Below, piece after piece: positions 3,822 through 17,667 of a stretch of 28,954 bases of DNA (the first letter of the stretch is position 1; the number at the start of each line of letters is the position of its first letter). Source of the stretch: a virus. Position numbers and translations under genes: made by a program. The notes beneath the pieces were generated by a model, which had not been told where the DNA came from, did no database searches, and saw nothing but the letters and a program-made list of their open reading frames with translations. Location of the stretch: the IMG/VR virus record IMGVR_UViG_3300037285_000072, positions 1 to 28,954 of that record; one strand, written 5' to 3'.

Positions 3822-6183
3822 ACTTGGTCAGAGCGTTATTGGCCGACATGCTTTCTGTTACAACAATCTTACCGCCGGTTTCCAGTTTAACAATCATGGC
3901 GTCGACTTCTGCCTTGGTTGAGCAGCGCATCATCTTGTTGACCTGGCCGCGTGGCATCTCAACCTCTAGGGATAACTTGCTCATAAGCTTGACCAGCTTG
4001 GCATCCCCGGCAAGCTCGATGCTATCTTCGTTGATACTGGCGTATGCGTATTCTATTTTCAGTTCAAGGTCAGCCCTGGCCAGCGCAAAGGCGTACAAGA
4101 CGTGTTCCGTTGTGCGCATTCCTCCGTCGGCCATTGCCAGAATAAGGCTAAATTTCAGCACTATCTCGTTTCCACGCCGGGTAATACCTTCAAGCCCTGT
4201 TTTTTCTTTGTGCTTTTCTCCTAGCAGCCAGAAGAAGTTCATGGACTCGTCGAGCAACTGATCTGCCTCGGCGCTGGTGGTTATGCTGTGCTTGTTGCCG
4301 CGTACCTGGACCCGGCTACCGGCCTCTATGGTTTCCCCTCCGCCGTACAGGCTGGACATTTTCATCGCCATTGCGAACGGCAGCTCAGGCTTTTTAAAGT
4401 TTGGCTTCCACCTGGGGTTGGTTTCTACTTCGCGGAATATGACAGCGCGAGATATAAAGCCGCTGTTTGCGCTCTCGTGGTTGATGCAGCCGTCAAACGT
4501 GCTTGGCGTTGTGCTACCCATCACGCACAGGTAAGGGTCTTTCAAACCCTCGTCAGCCGCTACAAGTCCACGCGTAAGCTCGTCAATCTTGGCGGCAAGC
4601 TCTGGCGTTTCCCCTTTCTTTTCTATGCGCTTGTTAATGCCTGCAATCTCGGCGCGGATCGACTCTTTTATGGTTTCTTTTTCGTCGCCAGTGACCGGCA
4701 AAATTCCGATTGACTTAGTGTAAATGCTCATTACCTCGCCGATAATGCCCTCAAGATAAGCGGCTCCGCCTTTTTTGCCTGCGTTGTCAATCTTGCGAAG
4801 CTCGATGCCAAGTTCATCAATGGAGTAAAAACCACTCTGATTGCGAAACAGGTTGCGTTTTATTTCCTGCTCAGATTTAAACTTGCCATGTTGTGCGCCA
4901 ATTACAGCAGCGGCAAGCATCAACCGGGTGACAGCTTGGCCAACGGCTTCTTTACCTGTGCCGGTTGCGGCCACGTTAAAGATCATCACGTTCAGGCCCA
5001 TGCTGTCGCGCTCGTCGACGTGACGCATTCCGCCAATACAGCTCAAGGCGTACATGGTGGCCCCTATGGTGATCTCCTCACGCGGGAACCGGCACTGCGA
5101 GTTAATCCACCTGTAAACCTCGCCAGCGTAGCCCGGCATAGCCCGGCGATTTATGCCTGCTGACCGGGTGACAATGGACAGGTTCTCGGCGTAGTCTTCT
5201 GCGTTTTCTTGGTTGACGGCCCCGGCGATCTCGTCAAATGAATCGACGTTGCCGATTATTACGCTGTCGACGTACCCGCCTTGGCGGGCGTGGAATATCA
5301 ACGTGGCCATTGTCACGCTGGACCCGCTTTTGCCGAACGTGTGCCATTTACGAGCACAAACGCCGTCTTTGTAGCGGTCTGGGTCTGTGTCTAAGGATAA
5401 GGCGTCCCAAAGTTCAAGACCATATTCAGAGCCGCCTGTGGTGTGGTGAAAGGCCATGCCGACTTCTACCCAGCCGTGATAATCCAGCGCATCAACCGAG
5501 ATAAAGCTGGCCACTTCCTTTAGCTCGTTGTCTGACACCTCAACAACCACGCCGCCATTCACGCCGCTGAACTGGCCTTTATGAGTTAGCAGGTCGATCA
5601 GTGCTTGCGGCGCTTCGGTTATGTCCTCGGGGTATCCCTTTATGCGTTCGTACTCAAAACCGGAAATATGCGGCGATCCCCAGCCGACCACGAAGCCGCT
5701 AGACTTGAAATCTATGCCGGGGTAGTCGGGGCGCGACTGATACAGCTTGCCGGTTACTTTTTCGCTCCTAAAATAATAGTGTGCTGACGCGCCGCCCGAT
5801 CCGGTTTGCACTGAGTAGCCAGCCACTTGGTCAAACTCAACCCCTAGGTCATCGCACAACCTGCGGAAAGACTCGACGCCGCCGTTGCGCTGATCCACGT
5901 CGACAACTAGCAAGCCCTTGTCCACCAGCACACCATAGGCCGGGTAAAGCTGGTGGTTGTACAGACGCATCATTTCAATCTGTTGATCGTCCCATACCGG
6001 CGTATTTTGCCAGTTACTAAAAACAGGATGCTTGCCCGGCGCTTCGCAGTCAGGATTGCCACATCCGCATCGCCCGTTAACGATAGGGTTTAGCGGTATC
6101 ACGCGGATACCTGCGGCCATGCACTGCCGGTACGGGTATTCCCATTCGTCTTCTATGTCAAAGTCTTCGGCGTCGTCAAACAT
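3802..6183 (-). CDS. Primase-polymerase with helicase/ATPase domain
   Basis: The protein has 793 aa and is the likely replication initiator enzyme. Residues 39-52 form a zinc motif (C39, C41, C46, H52). The archaeo-eukaryotic primase core follows: D95 and D97 (VVDVD), S133-x-H135 (SAH) and D158 (GID). Residues 215-303 match a PriCT-2-type primase C-terminal domain (GWVEVGMAF, KWHTFGK). From about 400 on it has a DUF3987-type helicase/ATPase region with a P-loop-like AATGTGKE ending at K411-E412, where Ser/Thr would be usual. Catalysis would be primer or DNA synthesis plus unwinding at the phage origin. Its start overlaps the HTH gene by 8 nt, so the two are co-regulated. Confidence 0.85.
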   Translation of the reverse strand: MFDDAEDFDIEDEWEYPYRQCMAAGIRVIPLNPIVNGRCGCGNPDCEAPGKHPVFSNWQNTPVWDDQQIEMMRLYNHQLYPAYGVLVDKGLLVVDVDQRNGGVESFRRLCDDLGVEFDQVAGYSVQTGSGGASAHYYFRSEKVTGKLYQSRPDYPGIDFKSSGFVVGWGSPHISGFEYERIKGYPEDITEAPQALIDLLTHKGQFSGVNGGVVVEVSDNELKEVASFISVDALDYHGWVEVGMAFHHTTGGSEYGLELWDALSLDTDPDRYKDGVCARKWHTFGKSGSSVTMATLIFHARQGGYVDSVIIGNVDSFDEIAGAVNQENAEDYAENLSIVTRSAGINRRAMPGYAGEVYRWINSQCRFPREEITIGATMYALSCIGGMRHVDERDSMGLNVMIFNVAATGTGKEAVGQAVTRLMLAAAVIGAQHGKFKSEQEIKRNLFRNQSGFYSIDELGIELRKIDNAGKKGGAAYLEGIIGEVMSIYTKSIGILPVTGDEKETIKESIRAEIAGINKRIEKKGETPELAAKIDELTRGLVAADEGLKDPYLCVMGSTTPSTFDGCINHESANSGFISRAVIFREVETNPRWKPNFKKPELPFAMAMKMSSLYGGGETIEAGSRVQVRGNKHSITTSAEADQLLDESMNFFWLLGEKHKEKTGLEGITRRGNEIVLKFSLILAMADGGMRTTEHVLYAFALARADLELKIEYAYASINEDSIELAGDAKLVKLMSKLSLEVEMPRGQVNKMMRCSTKAEVDAMIVKLETGGKIVVTESMSANNALTKYVRRIS

Positions 6184-14605: not shown

Positions 14606-15027
14606 GACAACCCCCAGCAAGCAAGCGCACAATAGACGAAATCCTACGACGCTACGCTCAGCGCGATGAGCGCAAAAAGGAGCGAAAGCAATACACCATG
14701 CTAGCCATAGGTGCGCGATACGATATGGTCAGCAGCACAGTCAACAGGCTAGGAAAAGGTTATGAGACGAACAATTTTGAGGCAGGTCTAGTTGCCAAGA
14801 TCAGGGCAGACTATGATCGTGGTATTGCGCTAGACGCGCTGATCTTGCAAGACCGAGCAAAGAACATTGCCGAAGATTTTGGGATGTCGCCGCGCAACGT
14901 GGAGAAGATATGGGCCAAGCACAGGATTAATTCAATCAGCGTTGACCTGCCAAAGTCCAAGGGCTATCACTGGATTTATACAAAGCGCCTGAGCAAGTCG
15001 CCAGGGCCGTTCGTGACGTATTACTGA
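14602..15027 (+). CDS. HTH DNA-binding protein, possible late regulator, 141 aa
   Basis: The ATG overlaps the upstream stop. After a very basic N-terminus (about residues 9-30, YAQRDERKKERKQY) there is a first helical segment MLAIGARYDMVSSTVNRLGKG (33-52) that fits a helix-turn-helix. A second lies at 86-105 (AKNIAEDFGMSPRNVEKIWAKH). The C-terminal region is basic. Two HTH-like segments in a 141-aa protein at the end of the early operon would suit a regulator of late genes, but no antiterminator motif is visible. Its stop region overlaps the end of the convergent lysis gene. Confidence 0.6.
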   Translation: MRQPPASKRTIDEILRRYAQRDERKKERKQYTMLAIGARYDMVSSTVNRLGKGYETNNFEAGLVAKIRADYDRGIALDALILQDRAKNIAEDFGMSPRNVEKIWAKHRINSISVDLPKSKGYHWIYTKRLSKSPGPFVTYY

Positions 15028-15329
15028 TCAGGAGTAACACAGCGACGATCAGGGGATTGCTTTCGGATTTCGTGCAGCTCCTGATCTCTTTTTTCTCTTT
15101 TCTTTTGAAAATGCAAGTTGACAAAGAAAGTGGCTATGCCGAATGCTGTGGCAATCATCATCATCACTTCGTTAACCGTCATCGCGCCCCAAGTAAAGAC
15201 TATTCCGTTTGTTAAATAGGTAGAGCTTGCAGCAATTGATTCTGGTTTTAAAGCACTTGGGGCGCTTTCTACTACAGTCTTTAGAGTCATACTGCTGGCT
15301 CGTTTTGAGGTGCGTTGAATTGCAAGCAT
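15021..15329 (-). CDS. Probable class II holin (HP1-family type), 102 aa
   Basis: One clear transmembrane segment lies around residues 51-72 (MTVNEVMMMIATAFGIATFF), followed directly by a basic tail (HFQKKREKRDQELHEIRK). A weaker hydrophobic stretch lies before it. The TVNE...FFVN-K pattern matches small phage holins of the HP1 family. It is the last gene of the lysis cassette, 9 nt after the 3-TM holin gene. The start is uncertain: 15329 or 15290 (MTLKTVVE), neither with a strong ribosome binding site. It could act as holin, or as antiholin to the upstream membrane protein. Confidence 0.6.
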   Translation of the reverse strand: MLAIQRTSKRASSMTLKTVVESAPSALKPESIAASSTYLTNGIVFTWGAMTVNEVMMMIATAFGIATFFVNLHFQKKREKRDQELHEIRKQSPDRRCVTPDQ

Positions 15330-15338
15330 TGTAACAGT

Positions 15339-15827
15339 TTACTTTTGCAAAATCTTTGCCAGCAATCCCGACCCGCTGATTTCCTTTGTGATCTTTTCCG
15401 CACTGCGGCCAATGACATACCCACCAAGGCCCAGTTTAATTAGGCCAAACAGGGATAGTATGGCTTCTTCTGACAGGTTCTCAGGGGTATATCCGAACCA
15501 GTACGCGCCAACCAAAAAGCTAAACCAAACCATTGTCAGTGGACGCCAATTACGCTGCAACCATGACTCGCCCTTGGCCTCTGCCTGCACAACCTGGCCG
15601 CGCACTTGCAGCCGGGTCTGCTCTAGTTGTGCCTCGATCTGGCGGATCTTGACAGCGGCCATAGGGTCCGCTTTTATTGCTGCGGCTACGGCGTCTGGTG
15701 TGGCGTCTACTCCTAGCGCACTGGCAAGCATGGCACCAATAGCACCACCAGCTTGCCCGGCAAGCAAAGAGCCTGCTACGGGTGCGACAGAGCCGACCAC
15801 GCTTCTAATTTTATCCCATGTGCTCAT
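15339..15827 (-). CDS. 3-TM holin superfamily protein
   Basis: The start at 15827 (MSTWDKIRSVVGSV) is chosen because GGAG lies 8 nt upstream, inside the end of the amidase gene; the frame to 15854 is longer but unsupported. The protein has a glycine/alanine-rich first hydrophobic region (GSLLAGQAGGAIGAMLASAL), then a charged helix (VKIRQIEAQLEQTRL), then two membrane segments around WRPLTMVWFSFLVGAYWF and ILSLFGLIKLGLGGYVIG. This is the layout of GTA_holin_3TM proteins. It follows the endolysin gene directly, as expected in a lysis module. Confidence 0.75.
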   Translation of the reverse strand: MSTWDKIRSVVGSVAPVAGSLLAGQAGGAIGAMLASALGVDATPDAVAAAIKADPMAAVKIRQIEAQLEQTRLQVRGQVVQAEAKGESWLQRNWRPLTMVWFSFLVGAYWFGYTPENLSEEAILSLFGLIKLGLGGYVIGRSAEKITKEISGSGLLAKILQK

Positions 15828-15829
15828 AG

Positions 15830-16258
15830 TTATAACTCCAAGGTAGAGGCCCATGCGCGGGCGTCAAAAGTCGGGCAGGTCTTTCCGCTGTCAAAGTCTC
15901 GGTGTCCGTACACGTCTGTGGCGGTCAGCTTGTGACGCTTGCAAATGTCAGTGACCAGAAACGACAAGGCCCGCCACTGCGCTTGCGCAAAGTTACAGCC
16001 GGGCTTGCCGCCGACCATGCAAATTCCCAGACTGCCGACATTGTGCCCGCGAGTGTGTGCGCCAACCTCGTCTTCAACGTCACCATCACCATTAAGGTCA
16101 CGACCAGTCTCTACGAGACCGCTGCGGCGTATTACGAACGCGTAACCTATGTCGGACCAACCTCGTTCTTCAACGTGCCAGCGCCGTATCTCTGCTGCGC
16201 CTATGTCCATAGACGCGGGCGTGTCTGCGGCATGGATGATTATCTTTTTAACAATCAC
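15830..16258 (-). CDS. Endolysin: N-acetylmuramoyl-L-alanine amidase, T7 lysozyme-like
   Basis: GTG at 16258 is chosen because AAGGAG lies 8 nt before it; a GTG three codons upstream overlaps the Shine-Dalgarno. The enzyme cuts the amide between muramic acid and the peptide stem. In the 142-aa numbering the zinc ligands fit T7 lysozyme: H9 (IIIHAA), H119 (YGHRDF) and C128 (GKTCP), with Y39 and K126 as catalytic candidates. A short segment, DLNGDGDVEDEVGAH (54-68), resembles an EF-hand or dockerin-type calcium loop. There is no signal peptide, so release depends on a holin. Two holin-like genes follow. Confidence 0.9.
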   Translation of the reverse strand: MIVKKIIIHAADTPASMDIGAAEIRRWHVEERGWSDIGYAFVIRRSGLVETGRDLNGDGDVEDEVGAHTRGHNVGSLGICMVGGKPGCNFAQAQWRALSFLVTDICKRHKLTATDVYGHRDFDSGKTCPTFDARAWASTLEL

Positions 16259-16263
16259 AGGGA

Positions 16264-16488
16264 TCACTCCTTAACGTTGTCATACTCATCATTCGCAAGC
16301 CAAGGAAACAAGCCTACGAACAAGCCCTCCCGAGTCAGCGCAAACCAAACCAGCCGAAAGTGATTGATTCGGTTTGACGTGTCCGCAGGCGGCTTCTTTC
16401 TGCGCACAAACACATGGAATATAAACAATAAGCCAATGGCGGCAGGCAATGCCATAATCGCACACAGGACAGCTAGGAGCGTTACCAT
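16264..16488 (-). CDS. Small membrane protein of the lysis cassette, 74 aa
   Basis: The N-terminal 28 residues (LLAVLCAIMALPAAIGLLFI) form a transmembrane helix followed by VRRKK, so the C-terminus should be cytoplasmic unless a second weak hydrophobic region (EGLFVGLFPWL, about 52-62) inserts. It overlaps the PagL-like gene (ATGGTAA) and ends directly before the amidase start. The position would suit a spanin or holin accessory, but neither a lipobox nor a periplasmic coiled coil is seen. Function is unknown. Confidence 0.55.
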   Translation of the reverse strand: MVTLLAVLCAIMALPAAIGLLFIFHVFVRRKKPPADTSNRINHFRLVWFALTREGLFVGLFPWLANDEYDNVKE

Positions 16489-16958
16489 GGCGTGGGAATC
16501 ACATAGCTTAGTGCTACATAGTCCAAACCAGTATTAGGCCGGTGTATCCCGGCGCTACTGTGGTGCACATACTCAAGCCGAAACACTTGGTTAAACTCAA
16601 CGCCCAAGCCTAACCTAAAATTGCTAGAGCCGATCAGCGTGCTGCCAGTGTTGTGACTGACCCCCAGCCGAACATAGGGCTCTACGCCCCTGTAGCCCCA
16701 GCCAGGGCGCGTAATGTACGAGACTGAGTAGATGGACATCTGATCCTGCTGCCCGTTCTTTGTGTCGCCTGCGCCCATCAGTGACGCCTGTACTTCCCAT
16801 CCCTTGCGCTCGTATCCAATTTCGCCGACCTTGGCAGATGAGTTTATGATTGATTTGCCCAAGCCGATGTACACAGTGTCAGCGCGAGCGGTTGCCGCGT
16901 ACCCCGCTGCGATCAGTATTACAATGAAAGCGGCTACTAATATCTTGGTTTTTTTCAT
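16482..16958 (-). CDS. PagL-like lipid A 3-O-deacylase, outer-membrane beta barrel
   Basis: A signal peptide spans residues 1-26 (MKKTKILVAAFIVILIAAGY...ATARA), then the mature chain alternates like a beta barrel to the terminal aromatic W158. Near the C-terminus it has VHHSSAGIHRPNTGLD (131-146). In PagL of Pseudomonas aeruginosa the catalytic His126, Ser128, Asn136 and Glu140 fit H132, S134, N142 and D146 here by spacing, with Asp in place of Glu. PagL removes the 3-O acyl chain of lipid A. Length (158 aa) is close to the family. It lies first in the lysis cassette. The role (envelope disruption or LPS change) is inferred. Confidence 0.8.
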   Translation of the reverse strand: MKKTKILVAAFIVILIAAGYAATARADTVYIGLGKSIINSSAKVGEIGYERKGWEVQASLMGAGDTKNGQQDQMSIYSVSYITRPGWGYRGVEPYVRLGVSHNTGSTLIGSSNFRLGLGVEFNQVFRLEYVHHSSAGIHRPNTGLDYVALSYVIPTPW

Positions 16959-17110
16959 GCCTTTGCCTCAAGTGCTGAAAGCCGCGCCTCAAAACCACGC
17001 GCAATAAATAAGTTTAATTGATCATAACGAAAGCCATATCTGTTGCCCGCCGTTTGTGTTTGTTCGGTCCATGCTGGAACACCTTCTAAAGGTTCGTTGA
17101 AAGTGTGCAA
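16955..17110 (-). CDS. Conserved-looking tail-cluster ORF with uncertain start
   Basis: The frame ends at TGA 16955, overlapping the PagL ATG. It reads HTFNEPLEGVPAWTEQTQTA, then NRYGFRYDQLNLFIARGFEA and RLSALEAKA, a typical phage tail-associated motif. Open reading extends to a TAA just upstream, but no ATG or GTG occurs in frame; TTG 17110 is the only start codon, 15 nt from the GGAG. That GGAG instead serves an ATG at 17115 in another frame that makes only 31 residues. Either an unusual start, a -1 shift from the upstream gene, or a decayed start explains this. Confidence 0.45.
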   Translation of the reverse strand: MHTFNEPLEGVPAWTEQTQTAGNRYGFRYDQLNLFIARGFEARLSALEAKA

Positions 17111-17118
17111 AGGCCATG

Positions 17119-17667
17119 CTAATTACTCCATCCGGTTGTTATGTCGTAGTCAGCAAGCGCCTGACCTGTAAGTTGTTTCATTGCGTCCTTGTGACTCCAC
17201 GCGGTTGCGTAGTGGCCGGACATAAAAGCACTTACCGCAAGGCCCATATCAAGCGCCTGTATGGCTGTGAGCGTGTGTGTTATGTCTTCCGAGCTTCGGA
17301 ATAGTATCGGCTTATCATCTTCAACCAAGATCGAGACTTGAGCAGATGCAGATATTCCGAGAACGTTGCTGATGTCAGCCGGGTTGCGTAGCTGTACAGT
17401 GCCCGGCCCTTCTGGAAAATTGTAAGGCATACCAGCTGCAATCGCCTGATCCCTAAGAACGTTTACGTCTAGCTTTCGCTGTTCAAATGTAGGCAGTGCC
17501 GCAACGTAGGGTAATGCCGTTGCCTGCGCGTCTGCAAAGAGCAATCGCCCATGCTCTTCTGGGTCGTCAGGGGAGGCGGTGAAAGGTATAATGCCATAAA
17601 CGAGGTGGTTTATTTCCATATCTATGGTGCCGTTAAAATTTAGTCTTTGGCCTGTGTATTCGTACAT
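17119..17667 (-). CDS. Tail-associated protein with DUF4376-like region, 182 aa
   Basis: The N-terminal 60 residues include INHLVYGIIPFTASPDDPEE. From about residue 62 the chain reads EQRKLDVNVLRDQAIAAGMP and YNFPEGPGTVQLRNPADISN, which matches the DUF4376 type found in phage tail fibre and fibre-assembly proteins. The C-terminus is helical. The gene begins directly after the TAG of the 17668 gene. It probably belongs to the tail tip or fibre attachment, as in related phages where this domain sits beside fibre proteins. No catalytic motif is seen. Confidence 0.6.
   Translation of the reverse strand: MYEYTGQRLNFNGTIDMEINHLVYGIIPFTASPDDPEEHGRLLFADAQATALPYVAALPTFEQRKLDVNVLRDQAIAAGMPYNFPEGPGTVQLRNPADISNVLGISASAQVSILVEDDKPILFRSSEDITHTLTAIQALDMGLAVSAFMSGHYATAWSHKDAMKQLTGQALADYDITTGWSN

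Follow-up and report, generated by a model that had tools for sequence, protein, structure and literature searches.

Gene Order at the Locus

The DNA considered here, a 28,954-base IMG/VR virus record classed as linear and referred to in its entirety as the window, carries late genes on its minus strand (head protease, major head protein, connectors, tape measure, and tail fibers) and recombination and helicase genes on its plus strand. The record is probably incomplete, as neither a terminase nor a portal was detected in the scanned proteins of the window. On the minus strand, an open reading frame (ORF) at 16482-16958, exactly where the earlier note had placed it, encodes a 158-aa protein that is predicted to be a PagL-family enzyme with an outer-membrane barrel fold. 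Residues 1-26 (16881-16958, minus strand) resemble a signal peptide with an ATARA end before D27, as judged by eye from the translation, and this pattern is repeated in the homologs.

The neighbors claimed previously, namely a membrane protein, an endolysin, and two holin-like genes, were all found, each on the minus strand. The stop of the PagL gene is overlapped by the gene for a 74-aa membrane protein with no Pfam or PHROG match (16264-16488), which is followed by an amidase endolysin (15830-16267; PF01510, 60.2 bits; phrog_822) and by holin-like proteins of 171 aa (15339-15854; phrog_3427, holin) and 102 aa (15021-15329; phrog_20, holin). On the other side, the PagL start is overlapped by the stop of a 51-aa ORF (16955-17110, minus strand) that matches the C-terminal ends of tail-fiber families only (phrog_24159 and others) and is probably the remnant of a swapped tail-fiber tip. 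Upstream of it lies a DUF4376 tail-fiber-associated protein (17119-17667, minus strand; PF14301), a recurrent type of neighbor.

The 74-aa protein (NRINH.RL.WF...FPWL..DE; alignment A6, L080-L133) is conserved in many phages, including some without PagL. Of the loci of this protein that extend far enough upstream, 17 of 46 have PagL nearby. It is a frequent companion, and an obligatory partnership is ruled out since most of its loci are without PagL. Xanthomonas phage LucasX carries a relative of the 74-aa protein, and no PagL homolog was found in that phage.

Assignment to the PagL Family

PagL usually removes a fatty acid from the lipid part by which bacterial lipopolysaccharide (LPS) is anchored. 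The 158-aa protein scores 29.6 bits against the Pfam PagL profile (PF09411; curated cut-off 23), and each of the 11 sequences in the first homolog alignment matches PagL. In the PDB, PagL of P. aeruginosa (2erv) was the sole credible match both for the single sequence in phmmer (E 7e-4) and for a 24-sequence profile (E 4e-5), and profile-profile comparison of the phage family with eight cellular PagLs gave a probability of 95.5% and E 1.5e-8. The Pfam score, the consistent PagL matches, and 40 homologous virus loci identify a real PagL motif, and a chance motif is ruled out by profile, fold, and dN/dS.

AlphaFold2 modeling of the mature protein with 24 sequences gave a pLDDT of 91.3, a pTM of 0.84, and eight main strands; an earlier model that included the signal peptide and used 11 sequences was poorer (pLDDT 78). 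Foldseek ranked 2erv first (E 2.9e-6; runner-up 4e-4), so that the refuting outcome named in the earlier note, a predicted structure other than an eight-stranded PagL barrel, did not occur. TM-scores against PagL are moderate (0.54-0.60) and those against OmpA and OprF are comparable, thus the fold by itself would not settle the family. LpxR (3fid), an outer-membrane lipid A 3'-O-deacylase and thus an enzyme of the kind predicted here, was a weak Foldseek match only; it differs in having a much larger barrel and belonging to another family.

The motif HHSSAGIHRPNTGLD holds H132, S134, S135, N142, and D146, and the earlier note had read H132, S134, N142, and D146 as the PagL spacing with Asp in place of Glu140. 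This reading was borne out by phmmer alignment to 2erv, in which they pair with H126, S128, N136, and E140, the 2erv numbers being counted backwards from the end of the alignment. The corresponding minus-strand codons lie at 16563-16565 (H132), 16557-16559 (S134), 16533-16535 (N142), and 16521-16523 (D146). All four residues are invariant and belong to a set of 19 invariant mature positions among 24 diverse members, which also includes S135 and G144; the active-site residues stay invariant among members down to about 38% identity. The barrel face was judged from the hydrophobicity register along the strands. On strand 7, positions in register with H132 and S134 are hydrophobic in 100% of residues vs. 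29% at alternate positions, and on strand 8 the corresponding values are 98% in register with D146 and 35% at alternate positions, which places the triad on the lipid-facing side. We take this to be the side on which the active site of PagL itself lies. The corresponding residues of Salmonella PagL, His163 and Ser165, are essential (PMC4958258).

The phage proteins share with 2erv an eight-stranded outer-membrane barrel, predicted here and the best match by sequence and fold, and the His, Ser, Asn, and acid residues at matching lipid-facing positions. They differ in being phage-borne and tail-fiber-linked, in having a shorter mature form, and in two substitutions, Ser for Asn129 and Asp for Glu140. 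Position 129 is Asn in eight of the eight cellular PagLs examined and Ser throughout the phage clade (S135; 16554-16556, minus strand), whereas the acid position varies among the same eight proteins. Therefore, the Asn129-to-Ser change, absent from the earlier note, marks the phage clade and the Asp for Glu does not; D146 is a conservative change at a position where cellular PagLs also vary, and its being unusual is ruled out.

Two alternatives to a lipid A deacylase arise from these features. In the first, a PagL-derived outer-membrane protein with a disused active site would obstruct a receptor or act as a plug at the surface. Small barrels can mask receptors, and the replacement of Asn129 across the clade would be in keeping with a lost activity. 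We nevertheless regard this as improbable, since a structural role would not need His, Ser, Asn, and Asp to stay invariant and lipid-facing in such divergent members. In the second, the PagL fold and active site would be retained for an acyl ester in a phospholipid or another acylated lipid rather than the 3-O chain of lipid A. A change next to the catalytic Ser that is specific to the clade, together with the shorter barrel (132 mature residues vs. 150 in 2erv), is compatible with a changed substrate, but the active-site set and its lipid-facing position are those of PagL, and PagL was the nearest family in every search, making this reading very unlikely as well. The identification of the 158-aa protein as a predicted PagL-type lipid A deacylase, based on profile, modeled fold, invariant active-site residues, and lipid-facing register, is well supported.

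Distribution and Neighbors of the Phage Homologs

In the widest search, 40 homologous loci were found in virus contigs, and three homologs were found in bacterial genomes, two from Denitromonas and one from a proteobacterial MAG, in prophage-like surroundings. Searches of 50,697 cultured-phage records with five different queries returned no homolog, PHROGs has no named family for a phage-borne lipid A deacylase, and no earlier description of a phage PagL was found in the literature searched, where matches such as PMC10305713 were name collisions. Comparison of the window gene with its closest relatives gave a dN/dS of 0.07-0.09.

Upstream of PagL, DUF4376 occurs in 12 of 27 neighbors, from different loci, and the remaining matches are mostly to tail-fiber, collar, and tail families across phage types. 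The PagL start is often overlapped by the stop of the upstream gene. One of the PagL upstream neighbors, probably the ORF at 5328-5654 on the plus strand of L076, matches the Pfam family of Tad2-like Thoeris anti-defense proteins, which suggests a spot for accessory genes. The downstream genes vary. An amidase follows in the window, L003, and L014, baseplate wedge genes follow in L007, L019, and L021, and a tail sheath gene follows in L037. In the closest relative of the window (L001), an unrelated 151-aa gene occupies the amidase position and the 74-aa gene is gone, with PagL kept. In Denitromonas halophila (L039, 9908-10692), PagL is the last phage gene at a prophage end, and tRNA-Met and then host genes begin 0.2 kb past it.

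The constant upstream tail-fiber module and the variable downstream genes mark PagL as an accessory gene that travels with the tail-fiber module and occurs in several settings, one of them beside lysis genes. The phage PagL genes make up a conserved clade that extends across unrelated phages and prophages and is associated with receptor-binding genes. The enzyme family itself is known; what is new is the carrier, along with the active-site change specific to the clade, and the finding would amount to more only if the enzyme carries out the outer-membrane step of lysis.

Lysis and the Putative Role of Phage PagL

The earlier note had proposed that PagL could act at lysis in place of spanins, having seen no clear spanin pair. 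A lipobox scan agreed with the latter observation, as no plausible spanin lipoprotein was found among the window late genes. The scan is an in-house consensus search, which odd lipoboxes may escape. The same scan found no plausible spanin lipoprotein in a 44-kb relative (G008) that has the same cassette and carries genes for terminase, portal, head, sheath, tail fiber, PagL, amidase, and holin. This relative is effectively complete, given that its two ends share a 4.4-kb overlap at 98.9%. The terminase of G008 was found with PHROGs; TerL_ATPase (PF03354) had no match in the window or in G008. This phage also carries a phosphoadenosine phosphosulfate reductase gene (L134, 15844-16644, minus strand). 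Identifiable spanins are missing from approximately 13% of surveyed phages (PMC6139136).

Spanins were found in at least five homolog-bearing phages. Overlapping or embedded Rz/Rz1-like pairs occur in L028, L033, L073, and G010, the record of L036, where the pair was recognized by eye from ORFs together with the lipobox scan. L004 has a spanin-like lipoprotein, supported by PHROG, that carries a membrane segment at its C-terminus, and a gene similar to it by topology only occurs in L023. G010 additionally encodes a ThyX-like protein (L138, 11895-13589, minus strand) that by eye is apparently interrupted by an intein-like insert. Given that spanins coexist with the homologs in these phages, spanin replacement is rejected as the general role of phage PagL. 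The protein itself has neither a lipobox nor a periplasm-spanning anchor, and instead has the signal-peptide-like start and a barrel. It would share with the spanins (Rz/Rz1 and u-spanins; PMC6139136) only the outer-membrane lysis step that the earlier note had proposed for it.

One precedent for a function in lysis is the mycobacteriophage mycolyl-arabinogalactan esterase LysB, a phage esterase that acts on an outer envelope lipid layer (PMC5707550). The analogy is one of role only, as the two proteins, their hosts, and their substrates are unrelated, and the lysis role is demonstrated for LysB and only proposed for phage PagL. On this account, the enzyme would weaken the outer membrane as infection ends and replace spanins in the window lineage. 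The place of the gene just ahead of those for the endolysin and holins, the lack of a detected spanin lipoprotein in the window late genes and in G008, and the membrane shedding promoted by PagL (PMC4958258) favor it. However, homologs elsewhere occur alongside spanins, precede baseplate or sheath genes, or sit at a prophage end, and Salmonella PagL raises vesicles without envelope stress (PMC4958258). The proposal of the earlier note is therefore not supported as a general function, though it could apply to the lineage of the window and G008, where no spanin lipoprotein was found. As an overall explanation, a lysis factor seems rather unlikely to us, and we are more doubtful still of the narrower proposal that in the lineage of the window and G008 LPS deacylation constitutes the outer-membrane step of lysis, as a LysB-like esterase route for Gram-negative hosts.

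As the constant neighbor is the tail-fiber module, a putative role in receptor or envelope modification, the second option of the earlier note, fits better than spanin substitution. Because the gene tracks the receptor-binding module, altered adsorption or release is judged the most likely effect and assistance with lysis the second. Lipid A itself is rarely bound by phages, thus any effect on adsorption would be indirect. The leading explanation, to which we give about an even chance, is that PagL is a late, tail-fiber-linked accessory enzyme that deacylates host LPS, alters the outer membrane, and affects adsorption or release. The gene, at the end of the tail-fiber module, would presumably be a late gene, expressed together with those for the virion and lysis. 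Its product would be exported to the outer membrane as an eight-stranded PagL-family barrel, where the His/Ser/acid site on the lipid-facing surface may hydrolyze an acyl ester of host LPS, by homology the 3-O-linked chain of lipid A. Deacylation would be expected to alter the packing, curvature, and surface of the outer membrane. In Salmonella, PagL expression raises outer-membrane vesiculation; the effect requires the catalytic residues and comes with no envelope stress response (PMC4958258), and by analogy phage PagL could change curvature and shed membrane. The most likely benefit would be envelope remodeling that affects adsorption and release: progeny might avoid being held on debris, competitors might be excluded, or lysogens might undergo conversion. 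A weakened outer membrane at lysis would be a secondary effect and possibly one specific to the lineage. Against this explanation stand the change of Asn129 to Ser in the whole phage clade and the moderate TM-scores, to which those of OmpA-type barrels are similar; in addition, the genomic association with tail-fiber genes bears on the role only indirectly. The enzyme identity is strong, and the biological role is what we infer from context.

Alteration of the O-antigen by phages is known. If phage PagL is active, phages would also edit the very part of LPS that anchors it in the membrane, with consequences for adsorption, superinfection, vesicle production, the LPS that lysing cells release, and perhaps lysis. 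Spanin-independent disruption of the outer membrane becomes directly testable in the relatives that carry PagL and apparently lack spanins.
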